From Bacillota bacterium (lineage in GTDB: Bacteria; Bacillota; Dethiobacteria; DTU022): 45,046 bases of DNA. The stretch covers positions 1 to 45,046 of the forward strand of contig JAWSUE010000016.1 of assembly GCA_033549065.1 (NCBI GenBank), in the 5' to 3' direction. The notes beneath the pieces were generated by a model, which saw only the letters and a list, made by a program, of their open reading frames with translations, did no database searches and was not told the DNA's origin. Shown one piece after another: positions 22,482 to 28,510 of this stretch. The first letter of the stretch is position 1. Each line of letters begins with the position of its first letter. The position numbers and the translations under genes were made by a program.

Positions 22482-23744
22482 ATGAAGCAGCTGATAGAGC
22501 AGATCAGAAATGAAGCAGAAAATAATCGAAGCAACCTGGCCCTGTTAATCGGAGAGATGGTGCGTATACGCAGTTATTCCGGGGAAGCTGAAGATATGCA
22601 GCTATATCTTCGGGGAAAACTTGAGGAGCTTGGGATGGAAACCAGGTTGGTTAAGGTGGAACCTGATAAGCTCGAAAAATATAAAGGGTTTAGTTATGAT
22701 GGATTTTCATATGACAGGCGTTACAGTTTGATCGGATTGAAAAAAGGAAAAGGCGGTTCAGGGCGGTCGCTTATTTTGAACGGTCATGTTGATGTTGTTC
22801 CTCCCGGTGATACTTCCTGCTGGATTGATGACCCGCTGAGCGGAAAGTATGTAAATGGTCGGGTCTATGGCAGGGGGGCTCTTGATATGAAGGGCGGTCT
22901 TGCAGCAGGAATTATGGCTATCAAGATTTTAGAGGATTTCGGTTATACAAATAGCGGAGATCTATTCTTTAGCAGCGTTTGTGGTGAGGAAACCGGGGGC
23001 TGTGGTGCTTTTGCTGCTGTTGAAAGCGGTTTAAGCGCTGACGGCTGCATCATCCTGGAGCCGACAAAGCTGAAAATATGTCATATTCAGTCCGGCTGCC
23101 ATACCTTTAAAATCACTGTTAAAGGCCGTTCGATTCATGCCTGCATGGCCTATAAAGGCATTAATGTCATCGATAAATTCTATATCCTTTATGATGCGCT
23201 TAAAAAGATGGATCGGCGGAGGCACGAAAGGTTCAGTAACCGATTTTATGAGAACCCCGGAAATGTTGCGCCCTTTAGCGTGGGGACTGTAGCAGCCGGT
23301 GAATGGCCTTCAAGTGTACCAGATCTGCTCGAAGCCCATGGGCGGATGGGTATATTCCCCGGGGAAACTGTCGAAGAAATGCACCGTGAATTTGAGGATA
23401 CTTTGCGGCAGGCTGCTGAAACTGACTCCTGGCTTGCTGAAAATTTGCCGGAGATAGAGTGGTACGAGGGGCTGTTCGAGCCGGCTGAAACGGACATTAA
23501 CAGTGATTTGGTCAAAACTCTTGCAGCAAGTCACCAACAGATCCTGGGCCGGAGTGTCCAATACGATGCAGCAACCTACGGCTCTGATATGCGAATCTTC
23601 AATCTTTACGCCAATATCCCTACAGTTCTCTACGGGCCCGGCGACGTCAGCCTCGCCCACACCGTCAACGAATACATCGAAATCGATCAGGTCCTCGAAG
23701 CAGTTTGCTCCATAGCCCTCATGATCACCAACTGGTGCCAATAA
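22482..23744 (+). CDS. M20-family peptidase/deacylase (ArgE/DapE-like)
   Basis: A 420-aa di-zinc amidohydrolase of the ArgE/DapE/ACY1 group. Metal-site motifs are NGHVDVVPPGD, RGALDMKGG, CGEETGG (catalytic Glu pair) and LEPT. The dimerisation/lid domain follows from about residue 205. Substrate (N-acetylornithine, N-formyl or a dipeptide) cannot be settled. AAGGAGAAG precedes ATG 22482. The stop codon TAA at 23742-23744 lies inside the left 45-nt repeat of the adjacent RAYT element. The protein's length and C-terminal helix look complete, so the repeat seems not to have truncated it much. Confidence 0.88.
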   Translation: MKQLIEQIRNEAENNRSNLALLIGEMVRIRSYSGEAEDMQLYLRGKLEELGMETRLVKVEPDKLEKYKGFSYDGFSYDRRYSLIGLKKGKGGSGRSLILNGHVDVVPPGDTSCWIDDPLSGKYVNGRVYGRGALDMKGGLAAGIMAIKILEDFGYTNSGDLFFSSVCGEETGGCGAFAAVESGLSADGCIILEPTKLKICHIQSGCHTFKITVKGRSIHACMAYKGINVIDKFYILYDALKKMDRRRHERFSNRFYENPGNVAPFSVGTVAAGEWPSSVPDLLEAHGRMGIFPGETVEEMHREFEDTLRQAAETDSWLAENLPEIEWYEGLFEPAETDINSDLVKTLAASHQQILGRSVQYDAATYGSDMRIFNLYANIPTVLYGPGDVSLAHTVNEYIEIDQVLEAVCSIALMITNWCQ

Positions 23745-23784
23745 GTGTACGCTTTAAAGCCTGTCCACTTTTCGTACACTTATT
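23740..23784. repeat. 45-nt palindromic repeat, copy A
   Basis: A 45-nt element with 12-bp perfect inverted ends (AATAAGTGTACG / CGTACACTTATT) around a 21-nt centre that contains the palindrome GCTTTAAAGC. It is the exact reverse complement of copies B and C. It holds the stop codons of both the M20 gene (plus strand) and the RAYT gene (minus strand). It forms the left end of the RAYT unit. Confidence 0.95.
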
Positions 23785-24601
23785 TGGATAATTTATAGAC
23801 TGCTGATTTGGATAAATTCATGAACTCACCAATTTCGGTAAAGGAATAACCTTCCTCGATTGCCGATTTGATAAATAGTTGTTTTAACGGTATTAATGGT
23901 CGGGACCGTGAGCCACTTTTAATCTGCATGATTTCTTCATCAGAGGCACCAATATCTCTTAATAAAACTTCCCTTGCTTTTCTGCCGATTTTTTCACGTT
24001 CGAATTCCTTTTCTTTCTTCACAGTTTTTTTTCTGAATGCCATGTAATTAAAATCATCTGGTGTTTTCATCATCTGTCTGTAATTGTTAATTGCATCAGA
24101 CCTGGTTGAGGATGTAATATTGAGGATAAAGTCGATATCCACAAAACTATTGTTATTTGATTGATAAGCCCAATCGCTGGTCCAATTATATTCTGAAACA
24201 GTTTGGCAGATATCCGCCCGGACCGGGTTCCAATGGATGTAACGAAGCACTGAAAAAAGATAATCTTCATCCAGAATTAAGGTGGCATAGTACCTTGAAC
24301 TGAACACATGGCCGTCTCGATTATTTTCATGGTTGTAATATTTGCCATATGCTGTATTGATTGGGTGCATGATTTTGCTGAGGGGCACTTCTCCGGTCTT
24401 AACCAACAGGTGAAAATGGTTATCCATTATTGCATAACCGAATAACTGAAAATCAAGTCTTGCTTTGTAGACTTTAAGAAGATCCAGATAAGTCTCTTTT
24501 TCAACGGTCTTGCCGAATATAGGCTCCTGATTATTGCCTCTCTGGGTAACGTGATAAACTGCGCCAGCGTATTCAATCCTAGATTTTTTGATAACAATCA
24601 C
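23780..24601 (-). CDS. REP-associated Y1 transposase (RAYT)
   Basis: A 273-aa HUH-superfamily single-strand transposase (Y1_Tnp, IS200-like). The metal-binding HUH motif is His62-Phe-His64 in DNHFHLLV. The catalytic Tyr is probably Tyr85 in NTAYGKYYN, though Tyr88 or Tyr89 are alternatives. DGHVFSSRYYATLI and RYIHWNPVRA are RAYT-type blocks. A C-terminal helix-turn-helix (SFTEIGEFMNLSKSAVYKL) is present. GTG 24601 is the only in-frame start that keeps the domain whole (SRIEYAGAVYHV). Its promoter leaves almost no leader. Its TAA stop is within repeat A. The frame is intact, so the gene may be active. Confidence 0.92.
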   Translation of the reverse strand: MIVIKKSRIEYAGAVYHVTQRGNNQEPIFGKTVEKETYLDLLKVYKARLDFQLFGYAIMDNHFHLLVKTGEVPLSKIMHPINTAYGKYYNHENNRDGHVFSSRYYATLILDEDYLFSVLRYIHWNPVRADICQTVSEYNWTSDWAYQSNNNSFVDIDFILNITSSTRSDAINNYRQMMKTPDDFNYMAFRKKTVKKEKEFEREKIGRKAREVLLRDIGASDEEIMQIKSGSRSRPLIPLKQLFIKSAIEEGYSFTEIGEFMNLSKSAVYKLSK

Positions 24602-24609
24602 CCTAAATA

Positions 24610-24638
24610 ATTATACTTGCAGTAAATTCCTCTTTCAA
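24610..24638 (-). promoter_or_regulatory. Strong promoter of the RAYT gene
   Basis: On the minus strand TTGAAA (24638-24633), a 17-base spacer and a perfect TATAAT (24615-24610) lie just before GTG 24601. The expected transcription start, about 24603, is two or so bases before the start codon, so the message would be leaderless or nearly so. Confidence 0.65.
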
Positions 24639-24735
24639 TAACTAATTGCTGAATAAATGGATGGAGAGGGCTTAGTTTATAGTATTTTAACTTCAAAGAA
24701 TATGCTAAACTTAATATGAAAAACGTTGTTGATGA

Positions 24736-24780
24736 AATAAGTGTACGAAAAGTGGACAGGCTTTAAAGCGTACACTTATT
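24736..24780. repeat. 45-nt palindromic repeat, copy B
   Basis: Identical over 45 nt to copy C and to the reverse complement of copy A. It forms the right end of the RAYT unit and lies 25 bases before the polX ATG, inside the probable polX leader, where its 12-bp hairpin could affect polX expression. Confidence 0.95.
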
Positions 24781-24805
24781 TGAGTGGGTGACGAAAGGAT
24801 AGGTT

Positions 24806-26539
24806 ATGGAGAAGCATGGCGTTGCGGGATTAATTGAGGAGATAGGTGTCCTGCTTGAATTGAAGGGAGAGAATCCTTTTAAGAGCAGGGCTTATTATAA
24901 TGCGGCCCGGATTATTGAATTGATGGGTGAGGAAGAACTGGAAAGATTGGTCCGGGAAGGTAAACTAAAAGATGTCAAGGGTATTGGCACTGCCCTTAAT
25001 GAAAAGATTACCGAACTTGTTACAACCGGGACACTAGTCTATTACGAAGAACTTAAGCAGAGTATACCGGAAGGACTTCTTGAAATTTTAAAAGTGCCTG
25101 GCCTTGGACCGCGGAAAATACAAACTCTTCATGAAATGCTCGATATAACCACTCTGGCTGAGCTTGAATATGCCTGCCGTGAAAACAGGTTGATAAATAT
25201 AAAAGGGTTTGGGTCGAAAACACAGGAAAATATTCTCGAAGGAATTGAATTCTTAAGGCGCAACCAGAATCAGTATTTTTATAGTGAGGCAATGTTGATA
25301 GCTGACGATCTGCTCGAACAGATGAAAACAATCCCTGGTATTGGTGAAGTAAGCCTAGCTGGCAGTATTCGCCGTTTCAGGGAAATTGTTAAGGATATTG
25401 ATTTGGTTGCATCTGCCGAAAAACCGGGAAACCTAACCCATCAATTTACAAAACTGCCCGGTATCTCCGGCGTAATTGCTCTCGGAGATACGAAAGCATC
25501 AGTTCAGATGGAAGAAGGTATAAATGTCGATCTACGGGTTGTGAAGAAATCCGAATATCCCTATGCCCTGCACCATTTTACGGGCAGCAAGGAACATAAC
25601 ACTGCTCTGAGGCACAGGGCAAAAAGCATGGGGCTCAAGATTAACGAATATGGATTATTCCGCGGCGAGGAACTAGTAAAATGCAGTACTGAGAAAGATT
25701 TTTTTGCCGCACTCGGTCTTGATTATATCCCTCCCGAATTAAGGGAGAATAACGGCGAAATTGAAGCAGCAGAAAATAGTACTCTGCCCTTATTGGTTGA
25801 GAGTAAAGATATTAAAGGTATTTTCCATGTTCACAGCGTCTACAGTGACGGAACAAATACACTGGAAGAGATTGTCCGGTATTGCCTTGACTCAGGCCTT
25901 GAGTATGTCGGGATCACCGATCACAGCCAATCAGCATTTTATGCCGGGGGGCTAAAGGATGATGATCTAAAAAGGCAAGCCGAAGAGATTCAGGCCCTGC
26001 GTGAAAAGTATTCGAACCTGGGGATATATGCCGGTGTTGAAGCGGATATTCGGGCAGATGGTACACTCGATTATCCTGACGAAATTTTAGAGAAGCTGGA
26101 TTTCGTTATCGCCTCTGTCCATTCAGGCTTGAAAATGGAACGGTCAAAAATGACCGAACGGGTGATACAAGCCCTTAGAAACCCATATGTCACAATGCTT
26201 GGGCACCCCACAAACAGACTCTTACTCGGTCGCGACAGTTCGCCCATCGATCTTGAAACAATATTTGAAGTAGCTCTTGAAAAGGGAATCATTATTGAAC
26301 TGAATGCCAGCCCGGCTCGGCTCGATCTTGACTGGCGGCATCTGAAAAAAGTCAAGGAGATGGGTTTGCTGGTTTCAATAAATCCCGATGCACACCGTCT
26401 GGAGAATTTTATAGATATTGAATTAGGGGTATCGTTAGCCCGAAAGGGTTGGCTTGATAAAGGTGATATTTTCAATTCATTATCCCGATCTGAAGTTGAG
26501 AAATACCTGTTATACCGGCGGGGAAAAAGTAAAAAATGA
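24806..26539 (+). CDS. polX: DNA polymerase/3'-5' exonuclease PolX
   Basis: A 577-aa family X polymerase with a C-terminal PHP exonuclease, used in base-excision repair gap filling. Residues 1-150 hold the helix-hairpin-helix lyase region (DVKGIGTAL, KVPGLGPRKIQTL, NIKGFG). The polymerase palm has LAGSIRRFREIVKDIDLV with the first catalytic Asp pair, VDLRVV with the third Asp, and HFTGSKEHN. The PHP domain (about 338-570) has FHVHSVYSDG, ITDHSQSA, GVEADI, ASVHSG, GHPTNR and NPDAHRL. AAAGGA precedes ATG 24806. Length is normal. Copy B of the 45-nt repeat lies directly upstream. Confidence 0.95.
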   Translation: MEKHGVAGLIEEIGVLLELKGENPFKSRAYYNAARIIELMGEEELERLVREGKLKDVKGIGTALNEKITELVTTGTLVYYEELKQSIPEGLLEILKVPGLGPRKIQTLHEMLDITTLAELEYACRENRLINIKGFGSKTQENILEGIEFLRRNQNQYFYSEAMLIADDLLEQMKTIPGIGEVSLAGSIRRFREIVKDIDLVASAEKPGNLTHQFTKLPGISGVIALGDTKASVQMEEGINVDLRVVKKSEYPYALHHFTGSKEHNTALRHRAKSMGLKINEYGLFRGEELVKCSTEKDFFAALGLDYIPPELRENNGEIEAAENSTLPLLVESKDIKGIFHVHSVYSDGTNTLEEIVRYCLDSGLEYVGITDHSQSAFYAGGLKDDDLKRQAEEIQALREKYSNLGIYAGVEADIRADGTLDYPDEILEKLDFVIASVHSGLKMERSKMTERVIQALRNPYVTMLGHPTNRLLLGRDSSPIDLETIFEVALEKGIIIELNASPARLDLDWRHLKKVKEMGLLVSINPDAHRLENFIDIELGVSLARKGWLDKGDIFNSLSRSEVEKYLLYRRGKSKK

Positions 26540-26598
26540 TCTGGAGGTCCTTTATTAACCGCATCAACCTGGAATAATATGATGAGTGGAGGTTTTAG

Positions 26599-27816
26599 AT
26601 GAACAGGGAAGGTTTAATCACGCTGAGCAATCACTGCATGAACACTTTATGCAGGCGTATTCCCAGCCGTTCGGTTGGCAGCCCGGGAAACAGGCAGGCA
26701 ACAGGGTTTTTCCTGGAAGAAGTATCTTCCCGCGGTTTTGAAACTGAAGCGGCAACCTTTAATGTATTAGACTGGCATGATGGTGGAGCCAGCCTGAAAA
26801 TCGGAAGTGAACATTATGAAGTTTTGGTCAGCCCTTATTCACTGGGGTGTTCCGTATCGGCCAACCTGGCAGCAGCGGGCAATCTCACCGAATTGGAAAA
26901 CACAGATCTTCAGGGTAAAATTATCCTGCTGCATGGAGAAATTGCTCGCGAGCAATTGATGCCCAAAAACTTCGTATTTTATAACCCCGAAGAGCATAAG
27001 AAAATCGTTTCAGCCCTTGAAAGGAGCGGTGTTCTTGCTATTATCTGCGCGACCGGTAGAAACGCTGCCCTTGCCGGTGGGGTCTATCCTTTTCCCCTGA
27101 TCGAGGATGGCGATTTTAATATTCCTTCTGTTTATATGACAGAAGAGGAAGGTAAAAAAATCCTGTCTCACCTTGGTGAGAAAGTGTACATCGAGTCTTA
27201 CTCCGAAAGAATTCCAGGAATTGCCAGCAACATTATCGCTCGCAAAGGCAGCGGTTTTTCTGAGCGAATGGTGATAACTGCACACATCGATGCAAAGAAA
27301 GGCACTCCAGGTGCTCTCGATAATGCTACCGGTGTAACTATTTTGCTCCTGCTGGCGGAGCTGCTGAGAGATTATAGCGGCAACAAGCTGGTTGAACTTG
27401 TAGCTCTAAATGGCGAAGACTATTATTCAGCGCCCGGCCAGATGAATTATATCAAGGCTAACCAGAATTTATTCGACACGATATTACTGAATATCAATAT
27501 TGATGGTGCCGGATACCTGGATGGAGACTCGGCATTTTCCTTTTTTACTCTTCCGGATGAAATTTTACAGGCAGCTAGAACAGTTTTCAGTCGGTATTCC
27601 GGTTTATGCGAAGGCCCGGAGTGGTACCAGGGAGATCACAGCATATTTATTCAGCAGGGAAGACCGGCGATTGCCTTCACATCGAGGTGGTTTCTTGACA
27701 ATATGGAAAGCCAGACGATCACGCATACCCCGGAAGATAATCTAAGTATAGTAGATTCCGGAAAACTGGCCGAAATTGCCGAGGCAATCCGGCAACTGAT
27801 AGATGATTTGAATTAG
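26599..27816 (+). CDS. M28-family zinc aminopeptidase-like protein
   Basis: A 405-aa peptidase of the M28 group. The metal-binding block TAHIDAKKGTPGALDNATG starts near residue 227, NGEDYYSAPGQMNY carries the acidic pair in an ED rather than EE form, NINIDGAG supplies the next ligand, and THTPEDNLSIVD the last His. A PA-like insert spans about 90-195. No signal peptide is seen, so it is probably cytoplasmic. GGAGG precedes ATG 26599. Copy C of the 45-nt repeat stands eight bases after its stop and may act as its terminator. Confidence 0.85.
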   Translation: MNREGLITLSNHCMNTLCRRIPSRSVGSPGNRQATGFFLEEVSSRGFETEAATFNVLDWHDGGASLKIGSEHYEVLVSPYSLGCSVSANLAAAGNLTELENTDLQGKIILLHGEIAREQLMPKNFVFYNPEEHKKIVSALERSGVLAIICATGRNAALAGGVYPFPLIEDGDFNIPSVYMTEEEGKKILSHLGEKVYIESYSERIPGIASNIIARKGSGFSERMVITAHIDAKKGTPGALDNATGVTILLLLAELLRDYSGNKLVELVALNGEDYYSAPGQMNYIKANQNLFDTILLNINIDGAGYLDGDSAFSFFTLPDEILQAARTVFSRYSGLCEGPEWYQGDHSIFIQQGRPAIAFTSRWFLDNMESQTITHTPEDNLSIVDSGKLAEIAEAIRQLIDDLN

Positions 27817-27824
27817 TTCAGTCA

Positions 27825-27869
27825 AATAAGTGTACGAAAAGTGGACAGGCTTTAAAGCGTACACTTATT
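27825..27869. repeat. 45-nt palindromic repeat, copy C (solitary)
   Basis: Identical over 45 nt to copy B, in the same orientation, and not adjacent to a transposase. It is followed by GTATTTTTTT, so its 12-bp hairpin plus the T-run could work as a terminator for the M28 gene. Confidence 0.95.
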
Positions 27870-27886
27870 GTATTTTTTTCCGGATG

Positions 27887-27913
27887 TTGATTTGAATTAA
27901 AATGTGCTATTAT
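27887..27913 (+). promoter_or_regulatory. Promoter of the secreted hypothetical gene
   Basis: An extended -10, TG-C-TATTAT (27905-27913), has TTGATT (27887-27892) 15 bases before its hexamer. It lies 45 bases before TTG 27958 and just after repeat C. Confidence 0.45.
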
Positions 27914-27957
27914 TTCACCAGGTGGGTTCATTTTTTATTTTAAGGAGGCAGTCGGAA

Positions 27958-28452
27958 TTGCGTATCGGGAAATGTAATCTATTTATCATCATATCTCTGC
28001 TTATAGTCCTGTTAGTCATGGTCACAGTCCCTGTTTTTGCCCAGGAGGAAGAAACGGAAGAGCCGTCTTCAACTCACGAACTGCTGGTGCCCTATGCCTA
28101 CATGTTTAATGAAAATATCGATCAGATCCCCGGGGTAGTAAAAAGCATGTTCGATGGTGAAAGGATCAACCTTTATGTTGATATGGGAGACGGCACTGAA
28201 GAAATAATCGGGATAACCACCTTATCAAAATCCTGTCTGATTGAAAAGTTCTTGCCCAACGAACTCGAAGATCCAACTCTTCTGGTCTATATCGACCGGG
28301 CAACAATTGACAGCTATATAAACAATCCCTCAAAAGATGAAATTGTCCAGGGGGTCCTTAATCTTCGAATTGAAGGGGTCGGAATCGGCAACCAGATCAA
28401 GGTGTTTTTCATGGGGCTGGCCCAGAAAATCATGAGTTTGTTTGGTGATTAA
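27958..28452 (+). CDS. Secreted protein of unknown function
   Basis: A 164-residue protein with a clear signal peptide (hydrophobic 8-24, then VFAQEEE). TTG 27958 is preferred: AAGGAGG lies about ten bases upstream and the frame upstream of it is not protein-like. The mature part is acidic and contains DMGDGTEEIIGITTLSKSCL and LRIEGVGIGNQIKVFFMGLAQKIM, with one cysteine. I do not recognise a family. The C-terminal hydrophobic stretch may be amphipathic. It is a single-gene unit with its own promoter and terminator. Confidence 0.7.
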   Translation: MRIGKCNLFIIISLLIVLLVMVTVPVFAQEEETEEPSSTHELLVPYAYMFNENIDQIPGVVKSMFDGERINLYVDMGDGTEEIIGITTLSKSCLIEKFLPNELEDPTLLVYIDRATIDSYINNPSKDEIVQGVLNLRIEGVGIGNQIKVFFMGLAQKIMSLFGD

Positions 28453-28477
28453 ACCAAAGATTAGAGTTTGTCAGAAT

Positions 28478-28510
28478 AAAATCATCCCTCGCGGATGGTT
28501 TTATTTTTTT
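28478..28510 (+). terminator. Rho-independent terminator
   Basis: A 10-bp stem (AAAATCATCC with GGATGGTTTT, one G-U pair) and a five-base loop are followed by TATTTTTTT. It ends the secreted hypothetical gene. The same bases encode the last residues of the small minus-strand ORF at 28482-28622. Confidence 0.85.

Follow-up and report, generated by a model that had tools for sequence, protein, structure and literature searches.

A RAYT transposase bounded by hairpin-forming inverted repeats, and its dispersed hairpin family, in a Dethiobacteria genome

Introduction

REP-associated tyrosine transposases (RAYTs) with terminal inverted repeats (TIRs) were named TIRYTs or TIRtrons in 2013; some of these repeats are self-complementary, and they form dispersed families (PMC3733652). 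Repetitive extragenic palindromes (REPs) of the E. coli type need GTAG and a bulged stem (PMC8266576). For genes of the TIRYT class, a published survey states that evidence of movement is lacking. Here, we describe a RAYT bounded by inverted repeats at positions 23740-24780 of a 45,046-nt stretch from a Bacillota bacterium of the class Dethiobacteria (lineage DTU022; assembly GCA_033549065.1, contig JAWSUE010000016.1, positions 1 to 45,046 of the forward strand). This whole stretch is referred to as the window. RAYTs bounded by inverted repeats are an already described kind, to which the locus adds a new case, and for its kind it shows unusually clear signs of movement. To our knowledge, no biochemistry is available for the TIRYTs, a large branch of the RAYTs.

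We consider it likely, with good confidence, that the locus is an autonomous, single-gene TIRYT/TIRtron, in which an HUH/Y1 enzyme moves the 1,041-bp unit and spreads its 45-nt terminal hairpin in trans, the copies persisting at gene 3' ends.

Architecture of the element

The element is closed on the left by a 45-nt hairpin on the minus strand (23740..23784; core GTGGACAGGC when the minus strand is read) and on the right by the same hairpin in inverted orientation on the plus strand (24736..24780). Its inverted repeats (23740-23785 and 24735-24780) are complementary at 46 of 46 positions, with the two arms 949 nt apart, which bears out a preliminary description of the locus that had reported ends matching over 45 nt with no difference. 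Each end is in turn a palindrome. The 12-bp arms and 21-nt centre proposed earlier are confirmed (12-13 bp), but the centre is more than an open loop, with a predicted inner AAAG/CTTT stem of 4-5 bp, an AAA bulge of 3 nt and a TGGACAGG loop. The predicted folding energies of the hairpin, -13.6 to -13.8 kcal/mol as DNA and -18 to -20 kcal/mol as RNA (z about -6.5 for the RNA), lie far below those of shuffles. A solitary hairpin at 27825..27869 (on the plus strand, taken as the strand of the GTGGACAGG core) is 100% identical to the element ends and lies 8 nt downstream of an M28 peptidase gene's stop codon. The number of third identical copies expected by chance was 0 (100 shuffles). An Rfam search of positions 23000-28500 returned no RNA family.

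Between the ends lies a single open reading frame (ORF) on the minus strand (23780..24601), which starts with GTG and encodes a TIRYT/RAYT transposase of 273 aa with an HUH and Y---NP nuclease fold and a C-terminal helix-turn-helix (HTH). The frame is uninterrupted and carries both NHFHLL and Y---NP, in agreement with the earlier claim of an intact frame and HUH motif. The intact promoter claimed at the same time fares less clearly. A TTGAAA-17-TATAAT-like site on the minus strand (24638-24610; a consensus match only) fits at 11/12 positions and lies close to the GTG start, but it is not unusual for the region, where comparable sites are no more frequent than in shuffles. Since this best match ends ~9 nt upstream of the GTG (24599-24640, minus strand), transcription would begin only a few nucleotides before the start codon, and the transposase mRNA may have almost no leader.

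A dispersed family of hairpins

The 2.39-Mb draft genome contains 16 dispersed copies of the repeat rather than the three first noticed in the window: the two element ends and 14 others, of which two stand in tandem at the end of a contig. A covariance model recovered the same 16 copies and one diverged hairpin (L169, G000:C19:29699-29753), which has arms AATAAGTGAAC...GTTCACTTATT and lacks the GGACAGG core. This diverged hairpin sits in a cluster of four hairpins close to a contig end.

Across the alignment of the copies GGACAGGCTTT is invariant, and the arms vary in step, as in copies C2a (TTGACG/CGTCAA) and C8 (AAACG/CGTTT). The arm covariation amounts to 4 doubly changed cells versus 0.5 in shuffles, none of 500 shuffles reached as high a value, and the signal was lost when the partner column was slid. 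In all copies conservation drops sharply outside AATAAG...CTTATT. The AAAGCG subtype is shared by both element ends, the copy at 27825-27869 and two copies on contig C19, and most others carry AAATCG; this sharing would fit a small burst that started recently from the current master. That the copies are remnants of complete RAYT elements was considered and rejected, as their flanks contain no RAYT-internal sequence other than an occasional CC ahead of AAATAAG.

The corresponding site in related genera

The left hairpin of the element contains two stop codons, that of the RAYT gene (23780-23782) and that of an M20-type peptidase gene on the plus strand (22482..23744; stop at 23742-23744), whose last codon also lies within the hairpin. 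On the other side of the element follows a PolX gene (24806..26539, plus strand). The locus was compared with neighbouring genera rather than with members of the same genus. In two relatives (G020 and G004) the orthologous M20 gene is directly followed, within a few tens of nucleotides, by PolX, with no RAYT between them. Their M20 proteins end WCGISD/WCGISG; here the protein ends NWC-Q, the left hairpin supplying CAA-TAA in place of the last codons. A AATAAGTG in the empty site of G004, considered as a target signal, is probably a coincidence, as it is missing from G020.

All 97 other genomes of the class lack a full copy of the repeat. Only one of its members, G030, gave weak matches (two), and G004, G006, G014 and G020 gave none. 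The convergent gaps between HflX and LexA and between gamma carbonic anhydrase and sulfhydrogenase, where readable in relatives, are likewise free of the repeat; some of them hold unrelated, terminator-like hairpins instead.

Because the hairpin copies are scattered and related genera lack the element wherever this can be checked, the element has probably moved. The earlier suggestion of mobility is supported on three sides, by the 16 dispersed copies, by the empty M20/PolX site in two relatives and by the absence of the repeat from related genomes: it is neither confined to three sites nor conserved in place among relatives.

The transposase

Pfam finds a Y1_Tnp domain in the protein, and the NCBIfam model REP_Tyr_transpos scores 80.9 bits against a cut-off of 80. 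In 64 homologues, the HUH motif (NHFHLL) and the tyrosine of Y---NP show little or no variation. An AlphaFold2 model built with 64 sequences (pLDDT 92.7) shows an extra C-terminal unit of three helices (residues 234-249, 254-261 and 265-272), the HTH spanning about residues 234-272. Among sequence models, HTH_23 stays below threshold, and across relatives HTH families match weakly and variously. A fold comparison ranked the E. coli RAYT-REP complex 4er8 first (Z 17.5 over 156 residues); a profile search of the sequences of solved structures gave no true relative by sequence. Both the REP_Tyr_transpos score and the 4er8 match support the protein as a member of the RAYT family, as had been proposed.

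These data also bear on whether the element is an ordinary IS200/IS605 insertion sequence. The Y1_Tnp domain and a fold similarity to the TnpA proteins of IS608 and ISDra2 (Z 9-10.5) point that way. However, 4er8 is a far better structural match, NCBIfam assigns the protein to the REP-associated tyrosine transposases, and the element has an extra C-terminal HTH, genuine inverted repeats at its termini and no tnpB. We find this identity highly improbable.

Related RAYTs and a possible two-part recognition code

Six further RAYT genes occur in the same genome (L017-L022, on contigs C2, C3 (twice), C4, C5 and C6), together with further repeat copies. Five of them have inverted repeats with different arms and a core of the GGGACGG or GGGGACAG type; one has a GGGGTCAGG repeat instead. 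Thus, at least seven repeat systems, apparently insulated from one another, occur side by side in this genome, and seven RAYTs, each with its own repeat, offer a natural set for studying how such systems stay separate.

The nearest TIRYT (54% identical) has a hairpin of like build, in which the arms differ (AATAAGTTAACA) and the AAGCCTGTCC core is kept. The hairpin occupies the same place relative to the RAYT stop codon as here and recurs about a dozen times, dispersed through the genome concerned. A scan of named genomes yielded 80 loci, mostly in Clostridia, the closest in a metagenome-assembled genome of the Syntrophomonadaceae (50% identity). The terminal repeats of relatives consist of an outer block (AATAAGTTAATAAGTT, CATAACTCATAACTCATG, CTTGCCACTTGCCA and others), which often contains the RAYT stop codon, and an inner core of the GGTGCCTGGCACC type.

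In partial Mantel tests on 31 elements, the outer block followed the C-terminal domain when the N-terminal domain was controlled for (r 0.41, p 0.0005). The inner core followed the N-terminal domain when the C-terminal domain was controlled for (r 0.26, p 0.001); cross terms were weak or absent. Both links persisted when the window length was varied and when close relatives were thinned out, and a linker control was negative. However, the borders of the TIRs were set by hand, Mantel tests tend to be permissive when sequences are related, and a control in which the catalytic domain was divided into halves came out partly positive; for this last reason we treat the two-part code as suggestive. 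Tentatively, then, and judging from sequence relationships, TIRYTs may have a modular code in which the outer block, or arms, is read by the C-terminal HTH and the inner core by the HUH domain; arms and HTH could then change in concert and give rise to mutually insulated families within a genome. At the present locus the outer block would have become the palindrome arms, and the solitary 45-nt hairpin would by itself provide the two ends of a minimal mobile unit.

The relatives also speak to the idea that some other transposon gave rise to the two hairpins as separate miniature elements, placed by chance around an unrelated Y1 gene. That solitary copies outnumber the pair would be expected in such a case. 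Yet inverted repeats of comparable layout bound all six other RAYTs of the genome and most relatives, the nearest RAYT has its like-built hairpin in the same position relative to its stop codon, and hairpin blocks covary with protein domains. We give this coincidence very little credence.

Two further observations concern RAYTs and repeats that occur apart. About a dozen GGTGTCTGACACC hairpin copies were found in G027, with no full RAYT of that type in the draft; they are possible orphan repeats (G027 and G030 copies: L227-L246). Conversely, RAYTs without a terminal repeat lie directly upstream of a comM/YifB-like gene at L069:3995-7511, L096:2947-6402, L078, L086, L089 and L114, most of them forming one clade of the RAYT tree. 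In L069 and L096 the gap between RAYT and comM is about 10-25 nt, and a DprA-like gene follows the comM/YifB-like one (both named by sequence inspection). This looks like a transposase domesticated into an operon for competence or uptake of single-stranded DNA. A literature search for RAYTs with ComM found nothing in the collection searched.

Siting of the copies

Eleven of the 13 scorable sites lie within 60 nt of a gene 3' end, compared with 28% of intergenic bases (p about 4e-5). Convergent genes flank 6 of 12 sites, compared with a background of 14% (p about 0.004). Several copies provide the neighbouring gene with its TAA stop codon. The two sister hairpin families of G027 and G030 (20 copies) follow this tendency too: none of the copies is inside a gene, six are convergent and two divergent.

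Such siting could also be read as that of a domesticated system. Here, no DNA would move; the hairpins, kept at gene 3' ends, would terminate transcription in both directions, stabilise mRNA ends or act as binding sites, and the protein would be a regulator or repair factor. The strong predicted RNA hairpin agrees with this, as do the copies between convergent genes where relatives hold other, terminator-like hairpins, the compensatory changes, which show that the fold is maintained once inserted, and the TIR-less RAYTs of the comM-dprA operon. However, a standard intrinsic-terminator scan detected no terminator at the hairpins of the element, the gene itself occupies a site that is empty in relatives, and several copies are identical to the present ends. 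Moreover, a function of the copies and mobility of the element are not mutually exclusive. A domesticated system appears unlikely to us.

Discussion

We favour a mobile TIRYT that acts on its own hairpin. In this model, the transposase would recognise the 45-nt hairpin at either end as folded single-stranded DNA, and its active-site tyrosine would cut at the hairpins, so that the entire 1,041-bp unit could move. Bare hairpins, as small non-autonomous units, would also be spread by the enzyme in trans. Newly made copies would last mainly at gene 3' ends and between convergent genes: the A+T-rich palindromic end (AATAAG, on either strand) would provide a TAA stop, and the hairpin would do little harm there or may take over the transcript end.

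Several points weigh against this model. Loss in the relatives, instead of gain here, would be a less likely account of the empty site. The ribosome-binding site at the GTG start is weak by inspection. Some copies may be dead, since C2b has one unrepaired arm and the loops of C6 and C8 are altered. No target-site rule emerged, nothing being conserved outside AATAAG...CTTATT. IS200/IS605-type enzymes favour the lagging strand; the orientation of the present copies relative to local GC skew has no consistent sign. The background for the 3'-end test consisted of crude ORF calls. As to the recent activity proposed in the preliminary description, the identical ends and the few identical copies agree with it, but gene conversion could also explain the identity of the ends.

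Taken together, the locus offers an example of a gene whose site is empty in relatives, a family of scattered hairpins whose arms change in compensatory fashion and the idea that specificity is split between two domains.

With IS200/IS605 elements (IS608, ISDra2), the element shares hairpin ends and, presumably, Y1 HUH chemistry. It differs in its perfect terminal inverted repeats: the ends of IS200/IS605 elements are same-strand subterminal hairpins, not inverted repeats, tnpB is often present, and there is no HTH extension. The E. coli REPtron (4er8, PMC8266576) has the same nuclease fold, a bulged-stem hairpin as presumed single-strand substrate and dispersed extragenic copies. In contrast to it, the element has complete copies as true inverted ends and an additional HTH domain, and GTAG is absent from the 45 nt and from the immediate shared flanks. 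The preliminary description was correct that the repeat is unlike GTAG REPs but missed the TIRYTs, a subclass already described in 2013, for which the unlikeness is expected.

By match to the published description, the element is a TIRYT/TIRtron, probably of subclass 2.1, not a GTAG-type REPtron. As in other TIRYTs/TIRtrons, a RAYT-like protein with HUH and a catalytic-type tyrosine goes together with non-GTAG inverted ends and, as in some of them, a dispersed TIR family, here of 16 copies. The core GTGGACAG matches 7/8 of their majority GGGGWSAS motif (by inspection); that of L019, another RAYT of the genome, is GGGGACAG. Different are the 12-13 bp-armed hairpin TIR with its inner stem, bulge and loop, and the stop codons of both the RAYT and its neighbour inside the TIR. 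With subclass 2.1, RAYT group 1 (Quentin et al. 2018, PMC6006769), the element shares HUH and Y---NP, a C-terminal HTH-like extension and the lack of nearby GTAG REPs; it differs in that here an empty site for the gene is visible in relatives.
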